In this document: positions 1,233 to 20,600 of the stretch, in pieces
Layout: every line of letters starts with the position of its first letter
How positions within the stretch are numbered: the first letter of the stretch is position 1
Origin: Phlegmacium glaucopus
Taxonomy: Eukaryota; Basidiomycota; Agaricomycetes; Agaricales; Cortinariaceae
Reading direction: 5' to 3'
NCBI GenBank assembly: GCA_015039465.1
Contig: MU130245.1
Coordinates: 1-21,288 of the forward strand
Length of the DNA: 21,288 nucleotides
Position numbers and translations under genes: made by a program
The notes under the pieces: generated by a model
The model's input: the letters and a program-made list of their open reading frames with translations, nothing else
Database searches by the model: none
Told to the model about the DNA's origin: nothing

Positions 1233-2915
1233 GAAAGCTTAAAAGTCGCCATCATGAAAATAAGCGGACTTCAAATTCACTTACCTATTTTGGAAGGAGC
1301 CCTGAATCGCGTTCCTGGTCAACAAATCATTTGTTCAACGTTATCACCCCCATTGCTCATCATACTCTCAATGTCTCACACTATGCTCTCCATTGTTTTC
1401 ACTATCAACATGCTCCTAAGCATATACCATCCATTCGTTCCTTGGCTAGTGATCCAGCAAAGCGATCAATCTACTATTCACATTGGTCATCAGCTCGTGT
1501 TTGATCGTGTCTTTAATCCATCATTTCAAGAACAGCCCCTTTATGGATGCATCAACTACATCTCCCATTATGTACAAGGCTTTGTCATTGTTGTTGTGGC
1601 TATGGACCCACAAGTCTTCCCCTCAGCCATCTATCTTGCCATCCCTCACTCTTGGATTTCACTCAGTCCCCTATCCTCACTCATCTACCTCTTATCTTAT
1701 CATTCACTGCCAAAACCATCATTCACACGGTACCTGAAGTCTTCCCACCCTCTTTATGACAATTTAGGAAGTCCAGGAGGATCACGACTAAGCAGGAATT
1801 GCAGATGAATCAGCAGCAGAGGATTATTCTCACAGTGTGTCAAGTGTTATCAAGGCTGCGTGACATGGGATCATGGGCAGGTAGTATTTTCTCGGGAACA
1901 AGGCTGCGCCTTTCAAGTGTTGACTCAGGACCTTTCACATTTCTGACATGACCACACACCTTTGGAGTCGATATATTTTTGCTATTGGACTATGTACACT
2001 GCCTTCTCTTCTTTTCTCTCGCACTTTGACATTTTACAGATCTTTTTATTGTTCCTTCTTCTTTTCCATTGTTCTTTCTTCTCACAGCTGTCCTCTCTTC
2101 ATCATTCTTCCTTTGACAGCACGTACTTCTTTCTTTTTATTTGTTTTACATAGCATAAATACTGCTCTTTTGTACCAGGATAGGTAGTTCAGTTCAATTC
2201 ATTCTTACCCCCCACTTTCATCATCTCAGTGGAATTCCAGTGAATTCCTCCCTTAAGTTCAATTTTCTTGCCCCTTACTGTCAATCTATCCCCTATCCCT
2301 CAACCGCTATAGTCTTACTGAAGACTCTCTCTTGCTCATCCTCATCCTCGTCTTATACCTCATTCATCTTCCAAGACCTTCATCCTCCTCCTTCTCTTCT
2401 CTATTCCTTCCCCTTACCTCTGTGTGTTAAAAGTCAAGGTTATACCTTCCCTAAACAAACAACAGGGAGTCTCTTGACCTAAGGTCTGGTCCACTGCTCT
2501 CTGGTTGGTGTTTATATACAACAACAACAACAATTTATAACGCTAGCTGGTCTCGCTGCCTGGCTCAAACGTCCTGAAATAGTGCTAGGGGGCCACTGTG
2601 CCCAAATGTGCGTAGCTGATAGTTGTACTTCTTGCGACTTGCTCTTGTCTTCTCTCGCAACTGCCTGATGCTTCGCCTTTATCACTTGCTCTTCCGCTCC
2701 CCATCCCTTTGCTATTGACCACATATCCTCCCATCCTCCCTCTCTTCTCTCTTGCCTTCCCCTAACACCGTCCTCTCTGACTGATTGTATTCCCAAACAA
2801 CTTTCGGAGGAAACTGAATGATTCACTGAATAATGTGGAATAGTTGATTTATCAATTTCTGAAAATATTGTACATTGTTGATTATCACGAGAATCTTGTA
2901 TCAGTCCCTCCTTCA
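1233..2915. other. Gypsy protease-RT interval without a gene; pyrimidine-rich, possible LTR-like insert
   Basis: No credible coding sequence was found on either strand. In related gypsy elements this interval encodes a low-complexity linker, but here the minus strand is full of stops apart from one open stretch at 2943-2512 that follows the protease stop in another frame and has no recognisable motif. The plus strand is strongly C+T-rich from about 1960 to 2460. A TATA-like CATAAATAC at about 2153, followed by GTACCAGGATAGG and a (CAA)n run at 2518-2533, resembles the promoter side of an LTR in the plus orientation. I could not find matching ends or a target duplication, so this remains a suggestion. 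Confidence 0.45.
2518..2534. repeat. (ACA)n microsatellite
   Basis: A short run of about five ACA/CAA triplets directly downstream of TTTATATACA. It produces a run of Cys codons in one minus frame and has no coding meaning. Confidence 0.85.
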
Positions 2916-3735
2916 TCAAAAATCCTCCTCCCCAACATCGCAAGACTGTCCATGAGGATGAGTGGCCATCATGACTCCTTTGCCCAAGTTCGGATCCTCA
3001 ATAGTGAGCATCTGCTGACCGTCCGCAAAATTCTTGACTGTGCTTTCGGTAACCAAGTTGAATGGACGACCTAAAAGAACATTGTAAGCTGGAAAACGAA
3101 GAATATGGACCCGCACGTAAATTGTTATATCGCCAAACTTGAATGGGACATTTTGCGCTAATCCCAGTGACTTGTTAAATGTGCCATTCGTGGACTGCAT
3201 TTGAAGCTTGATTTGCGGATCGTACATTAAACCGAGGTCATTACAGATCTCTTCAGACATCGCTATGATTTGACAACCAGGATCCAAGATGCACTCTACC
3301 TCTCGCTTGTTGTCGACAATGCAGAAAATGGCATGAATTGCGCTGGACTCTGCAGCAACCATGAGTTCAGCTGGGTCTGGAAGCTCTCCTGGTGGTAAGG
3401 TGAAGAGGTACTTCTCAATTGGATCCTGGATCACTATCCTCTCCCTCTCTATCATTCCCTCTGCTAAAGTTGACAACCCTATCATCATCTCCTCATCCTC
3501 AAACTCCTCCTCTATGACTGCCGCAAGGTTCTGTGTAGCAACTGATGCCCGTTCCTGACCCTGAGGTACATGCTTATTGGTGATCTGTTTGTGAACATGA
3601 GAGCAAACCTCGGGAGAGATGGACCACAATTTGTGCTGGGTAAGAGTGATGGGAGCTTCCATGGAACGCTGGCAGACATCCGCAGCTATCTTGGTATCAT
3701 ATACAGGTGGATAGGTACAGTAAGATGGGTCATTC
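2916..3735 (-). pseudogene. Gypsy Gag-Pol aspartic protease region
   Basis: The open frame contains LTQHKLWSISPEV near its start and then a retropepsin-like core. This has the strand VECILDPGCQIIAMSEEIC holding the active-site triad as D-P-G instead of the usual D-S/T-G, then GLAQNVPFKFGDITIYV and the flap/dimer region ending FPAYNVLLGRPFNLVTES, a signature seen in fungal gypsy polyproteins. The enzyme would cleave the polyprotein during particle maturation. Its frame differs from Gag: coding similarity (VYDTKIAADVCQRS) already runs in this frame from about 3725, while the Gag frame stops at 3686, so a frameshift lies near 3700-3735. The ordinary TGA at 2916 ends the frame. Confidence 0.85.
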
Positions 3736-8629: not shown

Positions 8630-8920
8630 TCCAATTGGAATTCCTTGGAATCCTTTGGAAGGATTTAGTACTGTGTCTCACTGTAAAGTCATGTATTCTC
8701 GGAATTTCTTTCCAATCCCATTCCAATCCCATTCCAACAAATTCCAAGCTTTCCAGTAGAAATCCAGTTTCCAATTGGAATCCTTGGAATTCCTATGAAT
8801 CTTTCCAATTGGAATCCTTTGGAATGCCCAGGACTTCCCAGGATTCCAAATATTCCAATTGGAAAGATTGGACTTTCCAAGGATTCCAAGTGTTTCCAAG
8901 AATTCCAATTGCCAACTTCC
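8630..8920. repeat. Minisatellite of TTCCAATTGGAA / TTGGAATCC units, left arm
   Basis: An irregular array of TTCC...GGAA words (TTCCAATTGGAA, GGAATCCTTTGGAA, ATTCCAAGGATTCC) in the outer arm. The units are self-complementary, so the array can fold on itself as well as pair with the other arm. The open frames over it (about 8485-8931 plus, 8678-8993 minus) come from the repeat and are not genes. Confidence 0.88.
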
Positions 8921-8981
8921 TAATCAAGTAATTAATCACCTGACTTGTAGCATATGACAAATAAAAGAATACCAGTAAGGA

Positions 8982-9057
8982 GGATTGAACCAAAGACCTT
9001 GAGAAAGGTCATGTGACATAATTCCCACACTGCATCAGTGATCTACCAACTGCACCA
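8982..9057 (-). promoter_or_regulatory. tRNA-like Pol III A/B box pair, left arm
   Basis: On the minus strand, A box TGGTGCAGTTGG (9057-9046) matches TRGYNNARNNG, and B box GGTTCAATCCT (8991-8981) matches GGTTCRANYCC at 10 of 11 positions, 54 bases apart. Between them is the hairpin GACCTT-TCTC-AAGGTC. A TTTT run follows about 20 bases downstream. The acceptor, D and T stems do not pair properly, so this is a tRNA-derived or SINE-like promoter and not a functional tRNA. Confidence 0.55.
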
Positions 9058-9326
9058 TCATTGCTTGTATATGTATAAAAACTAATGGTTATATATACCC
9101 CTCCCACCTGACTAAATAATATATTCTGGCACTTGCTGAGGGGCTGCTACCATGTATTATATACCAAAATGTTCATAAAAATGAGGGGAATCCATTGGTA
9201 ATAGAATCGCGATGTGATACACACTTTGATATGTAGTTATATGCGAAATACTGCAGAATATACAGTAAAATAATGCGCTCTATGCTTATAAATGAGCCGA
9301 ACATGACGCACCATATACCGATAGAA

Positions 9327-9477
9327 AGCTACACTGCTAGGGAATCTAACCATACTATGAGCGTGGGAATATAAGCCCTTTTTCAATATTAAAACATATA
9401 AAATGTGTAAAAACACGCACCAGACATGGCGCATGCACGTGATTTATATATATTCTGAAAGCTGTTATTAGCACGAT
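9327..9477. other. Loop of the fold-back element
   Basis: About 150 bases between the arms with no inverted partner, no open frame of note and no recognised motif. It holds AT-rich stretches and a CGCATGCACGTG-like palindromic patch near 9431. Confidence 0.7.
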
Positions 9478-9699
9478 TCTATCGGTATATCATGCGTCAT
9501 GTTCGGCTCATTTATAAGCATAGAGCGCATTATTTTACTGTATATTCTGCAGTATTTCGCAAATAACTACATATCAAAGTGCGTATCACATCGCGATTCT
9601 ATTACCAATGGATTCCCCTCATTTTTATGAACATTTTGGTATATAATACATGGTAGCAGCCCCTCAGCAAGTGCCAGAATATATTATTTAGTCAGGTGG

Positions 9700-10285
9700 T
9701 GTTAAGTTTAAGACAAAAGGAGAAGTCACATCGGAGTTACTCCGGAACGGACGGAACGGAACCGGAACAGTAACCCGGAAAGGACGTTGGCCTCAGCGTG
9801 TGTGCTGTGCTGCCCAGCTCCTAAGGTGTCCTGATTTCGGAACGGAAGAAGAAAGTAACAAGTCGGAAGACCTCAGTGACTTAGAGGAAAAACAAGAGGA
9901 GGGAAACTAAGTTGATATTTGAACTGAGGGAAAACATACAAGTTCGAGTACTTTAAATATAAAAGAAATTGCAACCAAAATATAGAATATAAATATAAGT
10001 GCTGCGTTCTGCTCCCGGAAAAGGCCCTGCATTCTTGGGTGAATAATCCATGGCTGGTGTGCTGACTGATAGTGGGAAAGATGATGACAAAGAATAGTGG
10101 TAGTGGTGAAGAAGTGATAACGGGTTTGGAGTATGGATGGAAGAACCGGAATGACACGGAGAAGTCTCGGAGTTGAACATAGGAAGAGTAGTTCGGGGAA
10201 TAAGGGAAGGCACTGTTCGGAGTACGGACTACCGGAGACAGCTCCGACGGAGCTGGACTGGAGTAACGTAAGACGGAATGTAACA
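9700..10285. mobile_element. Solo LTR, 586 bp (copy 2)
   Basis: Begins TGTTAAGTTTAAGACAAAAG and ends GGAATGTAACA, flanked by a perfect 5 bp duplication GGTGG (9695-9699, 10286-10290). It is the same family and orientation as 6253-6825, with the two differing by small indels (for example an extra GGACGGAAC near 9750) and scattered substitutions. The opposite arm keeps the unoccupied site (CCTCCCACCTGAC near 9101), so the LTR arrived after the fold-back arms were formed. No coding capacity. Confidence 0.93.
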
Positions 10286-10336
10286 GGTGGGAGGGGTATA
10301 TATAACCATTAGTTTTTATATATATACAAGCAATGA

Positions 10337-10412
10337 TGGTGCAGTTGGTAGATCACTGATGCAGTGTGGGAATTATGTCACATGACCTTTCTCAAGGTCT
10401 TTGGTTCAATCC
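10337..10412 (+). promoter_or_regulatory. tRNA-like Pol III A/B box pair, right arm
   Basis: The plus-strand twin of the pair in the left arm: A box TGGTGCAGTTGG at 10337-10348, B box GGTTCAATCC at 10403-10412, with hairpin GACCTTTCTCAAGGTC between and a TTTT at about 10434. Each would direct a short outward transcript of roughly 100 bases. The conserved spacing and boxes are seen; transcription is inferred. Confidence 0.55.
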
Positions 10413-10492
10413 TCCTTACTGGTATTAATATTATTTTCTTTGTCATTTGCTACAAGTCAGGTGATTAATTACTTGATTAGGAAGTTGGCAAT

Positions 10493-10770
10493 TTGAATTC
10501 TTGGAATCCTTGGAATTCCTTGGAAACACTTGGAACATTTGGAATTCCTTGGAAACACTTGGAACATTTGGAATTCCTTGGAAACATTTGGAATTCCTTG
10601 GAAACAGTTGGAATGAAATTAGAAATAATCCTGGAAACAATTGGAATTACTTGGAAACATTTGGAATTCCTTGGAAACATCTTGGAAACAATTGGAATTA
10701 TTTGGAATTCCAAGGACTTCCAAGGATTCCAAGGATTCCAAATGTTTTCAAGGAATTCCAATTGGAAAGG
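10493..10770. repeat. Minisatellite of TTGGAATTCCTTGGAAAC units, right arm
   Basis: A tandem series of words such as TTCCTTGGAAACACTTGGAA and TTCCTTGGAAACATTTGGAA, more regular than the left-arm array and richer in GGAAAC. Long frames rich in W, N, L, E and G cross it on both strands; they are artefacts of the repeat. Confidence 0.9.
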
Positions 10771-10787
10771 GTGGGGGACTGTAAAGT

Positions 10788-12632
10788 ATTGGGTTTGAAC
10801 TAAATTTACTTAGTGCTCCCACTGCAAAGGCAATGTCTGGTCGTGTACTGAGCATTGCATACATTAGCGTTCCGATGAGACTTTGATAAGGGTATGATCG
10901 CATGGCATCCTTTTCAATATCTGTTTGTGGGCAGTCATCTTTGGACAACTTGATTGCTGAGCTCAATGGGGTTGGATGTGAGCAACTGTCTGCGACATTA
11001 TATTGTTTGAGTGATTCTTGAATGTATCGAGTTTGAAATAGTTGGATGATTCGATGATCTCTATCGTAGTTGATTTTGTGTCCTAGGATTTGTGTAATTG
11101 GACCCAGGTCCTTGATTTTGAAATGCAAGCTGAGTAATTGCTTGTGTTCAGCCATGACGGATTGGTTGGTTCCAAGCAATCCCATGTCGTCAATGTAAAC
11201 AGCTAGAAAGCAAATTATACCATTGTTTCTGTATACATATATGCAGAAATCAGCATGGATACGCTTATAGCCAATTTTCGCCAATTCAGTGTCAAGAAGG
11301 CTGTTCCAAACACAGGAAGCTTGTCTTAATCCATAGATTGAGGCGAGTAACTTAACGACCTTTCTGGAATAGGTTCCACATCCCTCTGGGAAACAAAGGT
11401 AAAGCTTGATGTCTAGTAGACCATTTAGGAAAGCTGTTTCTACATCCAGATGGTCGAAATAGAGACGCAGCCTTACTGCTAAGGCGCAGAGGACGCAAAT
11501 CAAAGTAAGTTTTACAACCAGGGCAAAAGTTTCATTGAAGTCAATTCCAGGCATCTGGTAGTAACCTTTTGCAACTATTCGAGCTTTGTAACACTCTATT
11601 GTGCCATCAGTGTTACATTTAATTTTGAAGACAAATTTTGCATCGATAGCTTTATGGCCAGGTGGAAAGGAATTTTGTTCTTCAAACGTACCCATTTTTT
11701 TGAGTGACTGTAATTCCGATTGTATAGCCTCATTCCAATGATCAGCATCAGTACGACTCATTGCCTCTGCATATGTTTGTGGATCTTGAGAAAAGCCTGA
11801 TGAAGCTGCTGAGGCTGCATATGCTTGCGCTATTTCCACATATGCTGCTGGAATTTCTGGGTCTTCTTCAACAATTTCTTCATCAAGTGTTGGCGCTTGA
11901 AGCGGAGGTAGTGATGGATTCAGTTTGATTAGGTCATCAATTGGTGAGGTAGGGGATTGTCTAAAGCGTTCTGGAAGTCGACAAGTATGTGGACCTTCAA
12001 TATCGGGTGGTGGTCCCAGTAATTTGATTTCTGTTCTTCGACGTCTATGGGGTTGTACATGTGGCAAAGGTGCTGGTTGTTGATTTTCCAGAGACCAAGG
12101 ATGAATGTGCATGTCTTCGTTTTCAAGATCTTCAAGGTGAGTATTAGCTTCTTGTTCTAGAATACTCTTTCTTTGGTATCTGGTATTCTCATCATTCCAC
12201 CCATCTCCAACTTGTGTGATGCCAGAATTGTTTATGGCATTTTCTCCATTCCAGATGATCTCAGTTAGATCAACTTTCTGTTCTGGGATGGATGGGGGCT
12301 TTAATTGTTCATCAAAGATGACATCTCATGAGATAAACATGCACCGTTGCTTTGGATCCCAGAGTTGATAAGCTTTTGTACCCGGTTCATATCCCATCAT
12401 TACACATTTCCTTGTTTTTGAATCTAGCTTAGTGCGCCTTTCCTTTGGGATGTGGGCATATGCTGGGCAGCCAAACGGACGGTATTGTGTAATATGTGGT
12501 TTATTGCCTGTCCAAGCTTCATGTGGGGACTTATTGGGTAACCGATTTATCAGGTATGCCACTGTAGTTACTGCATGTTCCCAAAAGCCCTTAGAAATGT
12601 TGGAATCATGTAGCATTGCGCTAACAGACGGC
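10788..12632 (-). pseudogene. Copia pol: integrase C-terminal region and reverse transcriptase
   Basis: The frame starts inside integrase at AMLHDSN and reads KGFWEHAVTTVAYLINRLP, FGCPAYAHIPKERRTKLDSK and GYEPGTKAYQLWDPK. A TGA at 12326-12328 follows IS where DVIFDE continues, then comes an acidic linker and the RT domain. RT motifs are KARIVAKGYYQMPGIDFNET, HLDVETAFLNG, YGLRQASCVWN, the catalytic YIDD in LAVYIDDMGLLG, and TRPDIAFAVGALSKFSSNP at the insertion point. Apart from the one TGA the frame is open for about 600 codons, so decay is recent compared with the gypsy element. Upstream of 12632 the sequence is unrelated. Confidence 0.93.
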
Positions 12633-14429: not shown

Positions 14430-14985
14430 TGTCGGTGTTATTTCCTGCCTGCTGAAGTTGATTCTAGTTTATTTTGCTTTTTGAGATTGCTGAATCCCAT
14501 GTTCAAACAGATTGCAAACAAACTCCATATAAGTAAGCAGACTTCGCTTGTTATGTATTTTGAGCTAGGCCAAAGAGAGTCAAAAGCCCCAAGAAAAGTT
14601 GAGACATATGTCAATACATACTGGGGACTAACACAAACAAGGAACATGTAGAAATGTTGTTTCGGCTCCCAAGCAAAGGAGAGTGACTCGAGTATCGAAT
14701 ACAGCCCTGCGCATCAATGACGAGAATGAAACAAATAATACTCTTTGACGAGGAATGCATATGCGAGTGGTATATAAAATTAAAGAAGGGCGAGAGCACG
14801 ATTTAGGAACATATTCAAGCATCCATTGACTGCGAAAATTGTGTCGATAACAACGTAATGGGGGAATACAAAGTACAATTGTGCTAACAAATGTCTACTT
14901 GCGCCGCTTTGACACCGCACTCTCTAACCCGTCGACATGCTCAGGAAGGCGTTTGCCAAGAGGAACCATCCAGTCCATGTATCAT
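14430..14985. repeat. Spacer module R3 and kinase A 3' end, direct copy of 17040-17514
   Basis: Shared words include TGTCGGTGTTAT, GGCCAAAGAGAGTC, CACAAACAAGGAACATGT, AATTGTGTCGATAACAAC, ATAATGGGGGAATACAAA-like, CTACTTGCGCCGCTTTGACA and AACCATCCAGTCCATGTATC. The last part is the C-terminal coding end of the kinase. A 50-base stretch around 14690-14750 is private to this copy. No other gene was seen. Confidence 0.88.
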
Positions 14986-16471
14986 TGAATCTGTTATCGA
15001 GCTCGCTTGACGCATCTGTACCAGGGTAGATTTTTCCGGATCTCCGTCTAAAGGCATCGGGAAGTAGTCCACTTTGAAGTCCTCGGGCTTCGCGGATTCC
15101 CAGGTTCGAAGATCATCTGGTGGGTTGGAGTCATTGGTAGGTGACTTTATTCCGGTTGGAGTGATGCTGAGAGGCTCCATCTTCATGGCCGCCTCCCGGA
15201 GACGCTCAGAGAACCATGTTTCATCAGGTTCATCCAACTTGATAGATATCCCGCTGTTCGGAAGATAACGCTCAAGGAAGACTTTACCCAGTTGGTCCAC
15301 GAGTTTGTTGACACCAATCTTCTCGAATTGGGCGACGCCCCAATCACTTCGATCGATCAGACAGTGTGTTAACACGCTCATCTTGCCTTTACCTCCAATT
15401 ACCGACCCATCTCGGAGCCGACTGTTACGGGAAAAGATGGTTTGCATCCCTTCATAGAGGGAACCGGGGAGCTCGTCATGTTTTAGATAGAGTAGAGCCT
15501 CGTAAACGAAGACCCAGAAGGCAGACTCTATATCATCCCATAGCGTATGTCTTACAGTAGGACCTTCGTTCTGTAAGATTCTCGCGGAAATAAATGCCCA
15601 AGTGCCCTGCATATACACTGTCAGTAACCACAAAATTAGACATATGAATCGTAACTCACGGTACGTCCAGAACGTGGTTCGCCTCCATGCTTCCCCCAAA
15701 GCAAACACATATCCCAGTCGATAAGAATACCTCTCCATTCTTGGGTCTCTTTATCTTTGACGATCATTATGTTGCTGGCGCTGAGATCGCGGTGTAATAT
15801 ACCCACTTTGTACGCTTGTTGAGCGCCTGGTAGAGAGATCGTTAGAATTGCCAACCAAAAAAATGGATAAAACGCGCACCTTCAACCGCATCGGCAATAC
15901 AGGATAGCAGTACTTTGCACCAGGCAAACGTTGATAAGTCACGAGCGACAGTATTCAAAATTAAATGATGGCAAACCATTTTGCATTTCAAGTATTTTGA
16001 TTTTGAAGAGAACTCCTCGATCCGTTCCTGCGTTTCCGTCTCCAGCCCAGGAACGTCGCCGCCCAAACGCATAGATCGCACATCCTGTTCCTTTAGCATC
16101 CGGTAGGTAACTGCTTCGCGAGCCGTAATACGCTGGAAATCATTTTTCAATGAATCTTTCAGAGAACACATTGTAGACTTCTTTCGATTCATTCGATTCT
16201 TTACGTTCTCTTCATAAGGATAAGCTAGACAGCGACTATTGGCACGATTAAAAGGAAACAGAGGGGCACGCGCATATTTCGGAGGCGGAATGAAGAAGGT
16301 TTCTTGGACGTCCGTTTTGTCATCTGTCACGTCCATGCGAAAGAATCCTTCAGAGGAGAGGCGCATGTCACTAGGTTTGAACATCTGGGGATCCAATCCG
16401 ACTAGATAGTGACCCTTTGTCTCGAAAGCGATCCTTTCATACTCTTTCTTCATATCCCTGGGCGCGTTCAT
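14941..16471 (-). CDS. Fungal-type protein kinase (FunK1 family), kinase A
   Basis: Three exons: 16471-15880, 15826-15660 and 15606-14941. The two 53 bp GT-AG introns carry CTAAC and CTGAC branch-like words; the predicted protein is 474 aa. Residues in order: LKDS with the likely ATP-contacting Lys105, Glu119 in REAVTYRML, GILHRDLSASNIMI with His209-Arg-Asp211, IDWDMCLL with the metal-binding Asp234 (DWD in place of DFG), and RTGTWAFIS as the activation-segment end. The C-terminus is hydrophilic. FunK1 kinases are expanded in multicellular basidiomycetes; substrates are unknown. The ATG at 16471 follows an in-frame TAA eight codons upstream. The protein lacks the N-terminal RFIRWDR-type region present in the neighbouring mirrored copy, so it may be N-terminally shortened. 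Confidence 0.88.
15607..15659 (-). other. Kinase A intron 2 (53 bp)
   Basis: GTGAGTTACG at the donor, TATGCAG at the acceptor and CTGAC 12-16 bases upstream of it. Splicing joins SGRT to GTWAFIS in phase 0, which restores the kinase motif. The same intron occurs at 19505-19557 and, mirrored, in the 17515-19292 block. Confidence 0.9.
15827..15879 (-). other. Kinase A intron 1 (53 bp)
   Basis: Donor GTGCGCG, acceptor CTACCAG, branch-like TTCTAACG. Without splicing the frame stops within the intron. With splicing ADAVEG joins AQQAYKVGILHRD. The donor is non-consensus after GT but is conserved in all three copies. Confidence 0.88.
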
Positions 16472-17000
16472 TGAGGAGGGTAGGTAACAGACTTATGAGA
16501 ATACGGGTCTGTCGAGCTGTTGGGGCTCGCGTCCTTGGCCACTGCTGTTGTGCGAGTCAAGAACGAACCTTGCACGTGAACGTATTTGTACTTGATTACG
16601 CCAGAATCCTCGAACCCTCTCCAGTACATCGTATTCTTGCGGCATCTGCTGAGGGAGATGTCCGAGTCCACTCCGAGAGGACACACCTTTGGAAATCATC
16701 AGCAGGCGAGAATGATTGACAAATATTGAGTATAATGTCTTGACTACGGTACAATGGGCGCGGCACTCTCCATGAGGTGCTGCACTCACTGGCAGGCTGA
16801 TTGTTCCGATATAATATACTACAGGGCTAGCATCTTTCAAGGCTCCCAATTCTATATTCTGGTAGGAAACGTGTCCCCATTTTTCAATGGATCCAAATTG
16901 TACTGAAATGCTTTCCTGTGCGATTATCAATCTAATAGCACTTTTTCTGAGATGTGGATTAAGGTTGGTGAGGCTATTTATAGATACACCACTTCCTTCA
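16472..17000. repeat. Kinase A upstream region with R2 copy
   Basis: The 170 bases next to the ATG match the upstream region of the right-hand copy (20375-20545), with shared GGTAACAGACTTATGAGAAT, GTCGAGCTGTTGGGG and GCGAGTCAAGAACGAACCTT. From about 16670 to 17000 the sequence is module R2, including GCTATTTATAGATACACCAC. No TATA box is placed convincingly for the minus-strand kinase; a promoter must lie here by position only. Confidence 0.75.
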
Positions 17001-17039: not shown

Positions 17040-17514
17040 ATTCGAACTCTTATTTTGTCGGTGTTATATTCTTGCTGAAATTTATTTCGCGTTCTGAGAT
17101 TACTGAATCCCGCATTCAAACAGCTGCAGACTCTATATAAGTAACCAGACTTGTTATCTATTTTAGGCGGGCCAAAGAGAGTCGGGAGCCCCAGGAAGGA
17201 GTTCAGACGTATAGATACGGGAGACCTAGCACAAACAAGGAACATGTGGGAATGTTGTTCCGGCTCCCAGGCGAAGGAGAATATCCAAGACAGCCTATAT
17301 ATGTAAATATAAATGAGGGCCAGAGCACGATTTATGAACACATCTAACCATCCATTGGCTGCAAAAATTGTGTCGATAACAACATAATGGGGGAATACAA
17401 AATACAACTGTGCTAACAAATATCTACTTGCGCCGCTTTGACATCGAACTCTCTGACGCGTCGACATGCTCGGAATGGCGTTTGCCAAGGGAAGAACCAT
17501 CCAGTCCATGTATC
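17040..17514. repeat. Spacer module R3, second copy
   Basis: Direct copy of 14430-14985, ending in the C-terminal codons of a kinase at ...CCAGTCCATGTATC. Homology to kinase A in the normal orientation stops abruptly at 17514/17515. Here R2 and R3 adjoin without the 640 bp insertion found in the left copy. Confidence 0.88.
17424..17514 (-). pseudogene. C-terminal codons of the third FunK1 kinase (normal orientation)
   Basis: Minus-strand codons IHGLDGSS followed by LGKRHSEHV and a terminal KRRK, with stop TAG at 17424-17426. This tail is longer than that of kinase A (SSWQTPS) because of an indel near 17490. The piece has no start. Its upstream coding sequence is found only in the mirrored block: the last mirrored bases give ITDS plus two bases of Met, and 17514 supplies the third base, so the frame is exactly continuous once the block is turned round. 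Confidence 0.8.
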
Positions 17515-19292
17515 GACGGATACGTCCGCAGCCAGACAGGTACAGAAAAGCTTTGGTGAAGAAGAGTTACAACTAAGAACCAGGTATGCGAGCGAAGTAA
17601 GCGACCCTGGCAGCTCCTCGGCAGCAGTGAGCAGCTAAGCTAATGTGGTTCGTGGGTAAGGTGTAGAAGTTGAAGATGGACGCGATACCGGTTGAGTGTG
17701 AAGAAGTCTCTCCTAAGCTGGGGTGTCAACTCGCTCGATGCGGAGGTCTCAGGCACGCCCGGCGGAAATTCTTTATAGTAGTTAGGTGAACCGTACCACC
17801 ACGATTCAAGTGCGTACCACTGTTGGAGGAGAGGAAACTTCCTAAGAAAGCGTATATGCACTGTCTACTGTTTTGCTTATTCGCCTAAGGGAAGAAGTAA
17901 GGTGGAGGCTTTATACGCGCGCGTAGAGACAAAGGAAAATTAGCACGGTTATCTGCGACAGATCGCATAGGACTAGGACTATTTCTCTGGCATCTCTTAG
18001 TTCTCTTGCATTTCTTAGTTCTCCTCCATCTCTTACTTCTCCTGCACCTCTTAGTTCTCCTGCACCTCTTACTTCTCCTAGTTGTTTGCGGATGTTACAC
18101 AAAGGACTTTCTAAGTACCTTTTTCCTGACGCGTCGTATGCTGAGCGCTTCGTCGATAGATGGCCTACGACTTCCTCGTCGTACAGTTCGTACACGGTAG
18201 ATACGCGAACCCGCCGCTGCAAGGGCCCGACCTCTGCCTTTGCGTCCTTACCTAGTTCCTCGAGGGAAGTTTTAGTTTTATGAACTTTACGTTTTACCAG
18301 ACGGTAGTATATTAAAACTTATGACAGCGAGCGCTGAATAGTTGCAAATGGACCACGTTTCATGACGATAGGACATAACGGCTACGCCAACTTCCACGCG
18401 CAAAATAGGTAAAAAACCAACCGTTAAGATTGCTAGAGAGATGGTCCACGAGTTGTCCGCATGTTTCGGCCATATAATGTGGCGCTAGAGTCGCGGCCGT
18501 TGTATTACTAGCAGTTCCTATTTCTCTGGGTTCTTACCTCTCCATAAGAATAGCTGACCCTATACACAGACGACACCTCCTTCGTACCTCCGCTTGGTGC
18601 AAGACCTGCATGGCACTCAATGCTAAGTATACAGATTAAAACACCAATGACTGTCACATATACGTCCCGTGAACCCGTAAATAAAGGCACGTTTAGGATG
18701 TCTTGCTTCCAGGATGACATTCTGTATGCGATACCCTACTATATCTCAGACGGAAGACCCAGGAGTAGATGCTCCGAGATGAGATAGACTTTGTACGGTG
18801 CGTCGGGCCAGGAGAGATAGCGTTCTACGTCTGGTAGAAAAGAGAATTCCTAATGGAGGCCCTACCCAGCCATTAACCGCCACTTCCGTTCTACTCGCAC
18901 AATTGTGTGACGAGCCAACCAGCTTCATTGCCCAAGGAGTGGGTTAAGCTCTTTGAACCACAGTTGTTTGAGGACCTGGTTGACCCTTTTCAGAAGTTAG
19001 TAGCAATACTACAGTCGCTCTCGCTCTATAGATAGTTTAACCTACTTGGACTACTTTGTACCAAGAGACTCTCAGAGGCCCGCCGCCGGTACTTCTACCT
19101 CGGGGAGAGGTAGTGGGGTTGGCGTTATTTCAGCGGATGGTTACTGAGGTTAGGTGGTCTACTAGAAGCTTGGACCCTTAGGCGCTTCGGGCTCCTGAAG
19201 TTTCACCTGATGAAGGGCTACGGAAATCTGCCTCTAGGCCTTTTTAGATGGGTCCATGCCTACGCAGTTCGCTCGAGCTATTGTCTAAGTTA
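17515..19292. other. Mirror-image (reversed, not complemented) FunK1 kinase gene
   Basis: Read right to left without complementing, this block matches kinase A and the copy at 19318-20374 nearly base for base. For example CTCTGGGTTCTTACCTCTCC at 18524-18543 read backwards is CCTCTCCATTCTTGGGTCTC of kinase A (15730-15749). Both introns are present in mirrored form (about 18400-18455 and 18620-18675). Complementing left to right, without reversing, gives FunK1 codons: an N-terminal region with ARFIRWDRRGAVVTRRFDY, RGFDPTVE and FIPPPKYARASLFPFNRAN, then an acidic repeat, LKDS, GILHRDLSAGNIMI, a DWD region and GTWAFIS. One probable 1-base frameshift lies near 18130. As deposited, neither strand encodes it. 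Frames open in the block as written (for example 17640-17861, 18508-18720) are meaningless. Confidence 0.95.
17982..18080. repeat. 18 bp coding minisatellite inside the mirrored kinase
   Basis: About five and a half units of TTAGTTCTCCTGCACCTC-type sequence. In the mirrored reading they encode an acidic stretch of ENQEDV-like hexapeptides, expanded from the single EENVKN of kinase A (residues 87-92). The other two kinase copies have no expansion. Confidence 0.88.
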
Positions 19293-19317
19293 AAAAAAAA
19301 AAAAAAAAAAAAAAAAA
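19292..19317. repeat. Run of 26 A
   Basis: A pure A tract exactly at the right edge of the mirrored block. Its first A (19292) belongs to the mirrored coding sequence, leaving 25 extra. To its right the next kinase copy starts in mid-exon 3. It may be a poly(A) tail, but its place between two broken gene ends fits padding at a contig join better. Confidence 0.9.
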
Positions 19318-20374
19318 TCCTTAAGAGAAAAGATGGTCTGCATCTTGTCGATAGAGAGGACCGGGCTGCGTGGCATGTTTCAGATAGAGTAGAGCCTCGT
19401 AGATGAGGACCCAGAAGGCAGACTCTATATCATCCCATAGCGTATGTCTTACAGTAGGACCTTCGTTCTGTAGGATTCTCAACGGAAATAAATGCCCAAG
19501 TGCCCTATATATACACTGTCAGTAACCACAAAATTAGACATATGAATCGTAACTCACGGTACGTCCAGAACGTGGTTCGCCTCCATGCTTCCTCCACAGC
19601 AAACACATATCCCAGTCGATAAGAATACCTCTCCATTCTTGGGTCTCTTTATCCTTGACGATCATTATGTTGCCGGCGCTGAGATCGCGGTGTAATATAC
19701 CGGCTTTGTATGCCTGTTGAGCGCCTGGTAGAGAGATCGTTAGAATTGCCAACCAAAAAATGGATAAAACGCGCACCTTCAATCGCATCGGCAATACAGG
19801 ATAGCAGTACTTTGCACCAGGTAAACGTTGATAAGTCGCGAGCGACAGTATTCAAAATTAAATGATGGCAGACCATTTTGCATTTCAAGTATTTTGATTT
19901 TGAAGGGAGCTCCTCGATCCATTCCTGCGTTTCCGCCTCCAGCCCAGGAACGTCGCCGCCAAAGCGCATAGATGGCACATGATCGACATCCTGCTCCTTC
20001 AGCATCCGGTAAATAACTGCTTCGCGAACCGTACGCTGGAAGTCCTTTTTCAATGAATCTCTCAGGAAACACATTGTAGACTTCTTTCGATTCATTCGAT
20101 TCTTTACGTTCTCTTCATAAGGATAAGCTAGAGAGCGACTAGTGGCACGATTAAAAGGAAACAGAGAGGCACGCGCATATTTCGGAGGTGGAATAAAGAA
20201 GGTTTCTTGGACGTCCGTTTTGTCGTATGTCAGGTCCATGCGAAAGAATCCTTCAGAGGAGAGGCGGATGTCGCCATGTTTGACCATCTGGGGATCCAAT
20301 CCGACGAGATAGTGACCCTTTGTCTCAAGGGCGATCCTTTCATACTCTTTCTTCATATACCTGGGGGGGTCCAT
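19318..20374 (-). pseudogene. FunK1 kinase copy, 3' truncated and frameshifted
   Basis: Exon 1 20374-19777, intron 19776-19725 (52 bp), exon 2 19724-19558, intron 19557-19505 (TAG acceptor), then a broken exon 3. Exon 1 keeps FIPPPKYARASLFPFNRA, FLRDSLKKDFQ with the Lys motif changed from LKDS to LRDS, and REAVIYRML. Exon 2 keeps GILHRDLSAGNIMI and IDWDMCLL. Just into exon 3, near 19482, an extra base relative to kinase A shifts the frame after TWAFIS, and coding homology stops at 19318 against the A run. It has GNIMI where kinase A has SNIMI. The loss of the Lys at LKDS, the frameshift and the missing C-terminal 180 or so residues make a functional product unlikely. Confidence 0.87.
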
Positions 20375-20600
20375 TGAAAAGGATAGGTAACAGACTTATG
20401 AGAATAGGGGTCCGTCGAGCTGTTGGGGATCGCGTCTTTGGCGCCTCATACCACTGCTGTGCGAGTCAAGAACGAACCTTGGTTCATAGCAGGCATTCCA
20501 GGTTGTTTGTACTTGATTGCGTCAGAATCCTCAAACCTCTCCTAAAATACATACCAGTATTTCTTTTTGCATTTATAGCTGACAATGCGAGACCCTTTGC
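20375..20600. other. Upstream region of the right-hand kinase copy
   Basis: Homologous to 16472-16625 upstream of kinase A up to TCAGAATCCTCAAACCTCTCC near 20540, then unique. No gene was seen; the open plus frame at 20320-20655 is chance overlap with the minus-strand gene. Confidence 0.65.

Follow-up and report, generated by a model that had tools for sequence, protein, structure and literature searches.

The mirror repeats that form H-DNA are short homopurine-homopyrimidine tracts. The block described here shares their letter symmetry in parallel polarity but is 1.8 kb long, the length of a gene, and of mixed sequence. It lies in the assembly of Phlegmacium glaucopus, which comprises 60.5 Mb in 259 contigs. 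We analysed the first 21,288 bases of one contig (C88:1-21288) and refer to this whole stretch of DNA as the window. The gene that the block spells backwards belongs with family copies on contigs C88 and C150. Compared with Pkinase_fungal (PF17667), the domain carried by public relatives, we saw nothing unusual in the gene after correcting its reading direction. A further likeness is to the output of assembly software. In a paper analysing Phlegmacium (Cortinarius) glaucopus, JGI hybrid assemblies are described as the product of ALLPATHS-LG, with PBJelly used to patch them from PacBio reads; in the parts of the paper available to us, this is stated for hybrid assemblies generally (PMC7550596). 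According to the available passages of its own description, PBJelly defines a gap as 25 or more N (PMC3504050). It extends flanks into gaps, and a gap is 'overfilled' if the extensions exceed it without a recognised overlap (PMC3504050; English et al. 2012). In those passages, overfilled gaps resemble the present locus in having an over-long flank extension, no recognised overlap, a remaining gap and a gap unit of 25 letters. The locus differs from them, as so described, because the extension is reversed without being complemented, and because the gap letters are A.

We compared four forms of the block with the rest of the window. Note that reversing the letters gives the complement as read on the other strand. 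The initial annotation held that the block matches kinase A, and the copy at 19.3 kb, when its letters are reversed but not complemented. This was confirmed. Bases 1-1202 of the reversed string align to kinase A at 14984-16176 (90.5%, 1210 columns, E 0) and bases 440-1202 align to 19316-20079 (96.5%, 765 columns, E 0). Additional pieces, of 158 and 162 bases, align to 16214-16371 (86%) and 20117-20278 (83%), respectively. As the annotation had expected, neither the block as written nor its reverse complement gives such a match; their best hit in the window is 14 bases long with E 0.28, which is the level of chance. The reading frame for the C-terminal part of kinase A behaves in the same way. 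Against the reversed string, it aligns over 252 columns (84%, E 2e-154), while the best match to the block as written has E 0.24. Bases 1270-1778 of the reversed block align to another forward family copy (L014, 91.8%). Briefly, bases 1-1245 and 1270-1778, from the total of 1778, are explained by alignments. A k-mer model also scores the block as reversed (500-base bins of -11.3, -9.7 and -16.2). Both edges proposed earlier, 17515 and 19292, are exact: the left seam falls between 17514 and 17515, and the block ends with the base that opens a run of 26 A. The description of the block as a 'diverged paralogue' needs recasting; a separate, mirrored paralogue is not the best view of it. The block is 96.5% identical to the right flank where the two overlap, and the closest of the copies compared (C150:39991-41816) matches it at 96.2%. 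The text of the block spells a predicted kinase gene backwards; the DNA itself almost surely does not.

The arrangement of the locus is set out in Table 1. Joined to the reversed block, the left flank (17201-17514) gives a single HSP to copy L010 on C150 (39991-41816), spanning 1419 columns at 96.05% with 4 gap columns. The seam between 17514 and 17515 sits within a long identical stretch of this HSP. Conversely, with the block as written, the alignment ends at the seam. Text inserted between two contig edges thus continues at least one flank, and the left seam is continuous only after reversing. On the other side, from its base 440 onward, the reversed block overlaps the right flank where that flank begins (19316-20079). 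There is one indel in the first 160 columns of this overlap, and differences are more frequent beyond. The extension and the opposite flank (96.5%, 765 columns) were left unmerged, as at an overfilled gap. From these alignments, the block can be read as what is missing from the gene with its 3' end at 17298-17514; it extends that gene and overruns the next copy, which begins at 19318. The fill continued the left flank and overran the start of the right flank with no merging, and 25 letters stand between the two.

Table 1. Features of the mirrored locus, with positions in the window.
Feature	Position	Strand	Evidence or remark
Kinase A, forward member of the predicted fungal kinase family, taken as reference	14941..16471	-	ORFs 14941-15738 and 15842-16471
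Left flank, 3' end of kinase gene B in normal orientation, stopping at the gap edge	17298..17514	-	88% to 14771-14983
Putative gap-fill block written backwards, 1778 bases	17515..19292	.	Alignments, seam, k-mer score
Part of the block overlapping the right flank, mirror of 19316-20079	18091..18853	.	96.5%
Putative 25-A placeholder, visible as 26 A since the block ends in A	19293..19317	+	Genome-wide run counts
Right flank, kinase copy in normal orientation, truncated by the gap edge	19318..20481	-	19321-20481 is 91.3% to 15425-16572

The genome contains 157 runs of exactly 25 A on the + strand and one on the - strand. For exactly 24 A, the equivalent counts are 0 and 1. For exactly 26 A they are 72 and 1, and the run at window position 19292 is among them. 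Since the orientation of contigs is arbitrary, biological A runs are not expected to favour one strand so strongly, or to have so sharp a lower limit of length. From these counts, we read the exact-25 runs as text-level placeholders that are lengthened where the neighbouring base happens to be A. Such a placeholder has a fixed length in the frame of the assembly and is independent of biological strand, as for an artefact of gap filling.

Twelve sites with 25 or 26 A were scored using the k-mer model of normal and reversed sequence. The kinase search had already supplied two of these, another step of the analysis supplied five, and the last five were hand-picked from the exact-25 runs. At eight of the 12, at least one 500-base bin scored below -6, compared with 1 of 163 null bins. 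The model was trained on normal sequence, and this null may be optimistic, since the training stretches that supplied its bins also contain the kinase family. For one of the eight (C88:141454), the only such bin scores -6.7 and lies apart from its A25. The remaining four sites have no reversed bin. Scored apart, a 32-A run at C3:37034 and a 44-T run at C6 have no bin below -6. For three of the 12 sites compared (the present one on C88, and those on C125 and C24) the reversed fill overlaps the opposite flank. The overlap at C125, past the 25-A run and into the right flank, is 97.9% over 1115 columns. At C24, all 57 of 57 bases agree with the right flank.

Backward text is also found elsewhere in the assembly. 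As written, the block matches C88:24198 onward, C88:27075-27523, the end of C150, C150 at 36.4 kb and C125 at 417.1 kb, all of which are reversed relative to normal copies. The stretch C88:24198-27523 (L029-L030; 3326 bases) has reversed pieces throughout, contains parts of two kinase copies and lacks a placeholder. Once reversed, it runs into the right flank at 27524 as a single HSP (1413 columns, 90.4%). Similarly, the reversed text at the end of C150 continues the left flank (1635 columns, 91.9%). The effect is not confined to kinase genes. At C5:283890, the text next to the A25 encodes ankyrin repeats when reversed (PF00023, E 6.8e-48), and the longest ORF there, as written, has no Pfam match. 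This was the named domain found in one of four reversed ORFs when eight fragments were scanned against Pfam; the reversed copia-like and gag-like ORFs (labelled by eye), one reversed ORF from C3, and the four as-written ORFs gave none.

Counts of short words gave the same picture genome-wide. A 19-mer from a dispersed repeat has 526 exact copies in normal orientation and 42 backward (42 of 568, about 7%). The word was chosen from the repeat at window positions 1385-2361 and is also present in the reversed text at C3:48158. For a 17-mer from the kinase, there are nine normal and three backward copies. We measured the distance from repeat words to placeholders using 100 of the 526 normal words and 99 of the 157 exact-25 runs on the + strand, with no runs longer than 26. 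Among the copies so listed, five of 42 backward words, and two of 100 normal ones, lie within 1 kb of a placeholder (Fisher p 0.024; random expectation 0.24). Within 2 kb, the numbers are five of 42 and three of 100 (p 0.050) and, within 3 kb, five of 42 and six of 100 (p 0.30). The other 37 of the 42 backward words are more than 3 kb from any listed A25 or A26 run. That many backward words are distant from placeholders would be expected if many fills were closed. A single isolated error was rejected because there are more reversed blocks on C88, C125 and C150, and because the repeat word is backward at 42 places. Hence, the same fault is present at unrelated loci of one assembly.

We are close to certain, from the letters at the seams and the runs, that 17515-19292 is predicted kinase gene sequence reversed, and not complemented, by a long-read gap-filling step that pasted the fill into the scaffold. 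The events may be envisaged as follows. A long-read gap filler would have written some fills reversed without complementing them. The step at fault may be PBJelly, or the local pipeline in which it ran. The site itself would be an 'overfilled' gap, left with a gap of minimum size, and the 25 gap letters could later have been written as A. Only part of the fills would be reversed, perhaps those handled in one orientation. Since a stretch lacking a placeholder is also reversed, the reversal probably took place at fill write-out, after local assembly. Reversed fills, or gaps coded as A, are not described in the parts available to us of PMC7550596, PMC3504050, PMC9635638, PMC6240028 or PMC7757076. 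Likewise, among the papers listed in our literature searches (20 of 123 and 20 of 29), none has a title or opening abstract lines describing reversed, uncomplemented fills.

The kinase family is large. The C-terminal ORF of kinase A matches Pkinase_fungal (PF17667) weakly, with 20.4 bits against a cut-off of 24.1, and the N-terminal ORF matches no Pfam profile. Public relatives (P0001-P0009) carry PF17667 as a precomputed assignment, and one public protein (P0025) matches window 15394-15606 with 100% identity over 71 residues. Of 31 public proteins retrieved by homology, 15 match stretches of the assembly that we examined at 97% or better over at least 40 residues, and all 15 are labelled Phlegmacium glaucopus. 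With kinase A as the query, at least 56 pieces were matched, many of them on C88, C150, C198 and C224. As a separate observation, C198 and C224 agree exactly in length with public contigs, unlike C88 and C150. Several reversed copies differ from each other by 5-9%. We built a tree from three reversed and 14 normal copies, with the reversed stretches at C88:27075, C125 and C150:36399 left out. Two of the reversed copies (the C150 end and C88:24198) are sisters, with support of 100/100, and are 95.4% identical. The third falls beside winC and L010, a placement that is not strongly supported. As judged from these sequences, the tree neither proves nor excludes a mirrored lineage. A test for selection by codon position did not discriminate, since there was no third-position excess even among forward copies. 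The organism itself would have one ordinary kinase gene here, or two in tandem.

Might the mirrored block be physically real, with some process having copied kilobases in parallel polarity? The letters are indeed as described, several reversed copies differ by 5-9%, and the tree pairs two of them as sisters. Yet reads from one locus, used twice, would also produce two reversed sisters, and this is a simpler account than a mirrored lineage. The reversed stretches border 25-A placeholders locked to one strand, and only reversal in place restores the gene at the edges tested. Moreover, other sequence is affected, such as the ankyrin repeats, and the correct reading would overlap the opposite flank at three sites. 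We know of no polymerase or recombinase that copies DNA in this way. The initial annotation had named a reversed, uncomplemented segment as the simplest explanation, and our data strongly support this. Its title leans toward physical reality, which is very unlikely given the strand-locked runs, the seams in place, and recurrence in other sequences; a true mirror copy is, we think, vanishingly improbable. An ordinary inversion, or inverted duplicate, would leave the reverse complement. Normal inverted repeats do occur in the window (for example, 9104-9326 and 9477-9699, at 98%) but the reverse complement of the block finds nothing better than E 0.28 there. Ordinary inversion is refuted by this and we give it practically no credence at all. 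Chance similarity was rejected along with it, because only the reversed form aligns in the window.

The letters might instead have been reversed after assembly, during preparation of the database or data set, rather than by a gap filler. Contigs C88 (196,354) and C150 (69,740) are shorter than the public contigs carrying their proteins (207,479 and 86,744), which would suit such handling. However, the reversed segments coincide with the anatomy of gap filling, namely seams in place, overlap with the opposite flank, and placeholders of 25 bases. A mistake made in later handling would not be expected to follow gap edges, so this coincidence counts against it, and we regard the idea as very improbable. 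If the fills were reversed during gap filling, as we propose, the tool need not have been PBJelly. Another gap closer, a script for contig extension, or polishing may have been at fault. In favour, the available passages of PMC3504050 do not describe the fault for PBJelly, and the program is named, in what is available of PMC7550596, for hybrid assemblies in general. On the other hand, the 25-base gap unit, flank extension and overfilled gaps documented for PBJelly in those passages fit the anatomy (PMC3504050), and PBJelly is the patcher named in the paper on Phlegmacium glaucopus (PMC7550596). We lean against a different tool but take it seriously.

We conclude that the block is most likely an assembly artefact, and not a real feature, so far as sequence can tell; it merits a flag in the public record. 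More broadly, it is plausible, if a shade on the doubtful side, that a widely used route for long-read gap filling has an undescribed fault, by which fills are written backwards and leftover gaps are coded as 25 A. This genome, and others made similarly, would then carry many hidden mirror-image genes and repeats, missed by ordinary homology searches. Since one repeat word is backward in about 7% of its exact copies, genes in such stretches would be invisible to ordinary annotation. The message is a warning about data quality rather than biology. One cheap diagnostic is to look for homopolymer runs that are in excess at a single exact length and on one strand. Another is to match the reversed, uncomplemented text of a genome against itself. 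Both could be used to screen other assemblies from the same route.

Other features of the window are of ordinary kinds. The left part contains the remains of retrotransposons: 2916-3662 encodes a gag-type aspartyl protease, and 10748-12112 a copia-type reverse transcriptase (RVT_2, E 9.8e-52). At the start of the contig (1-260) there is a short, imperfect tandem repeat of CTGGAGTC-like units. Finally, positions 8874-9110 and 10284-10526 form an ordinary inverted repeat (94%) that, with the pair at 9104-9326 and 9477-9699, contrasts with the mirrored block.
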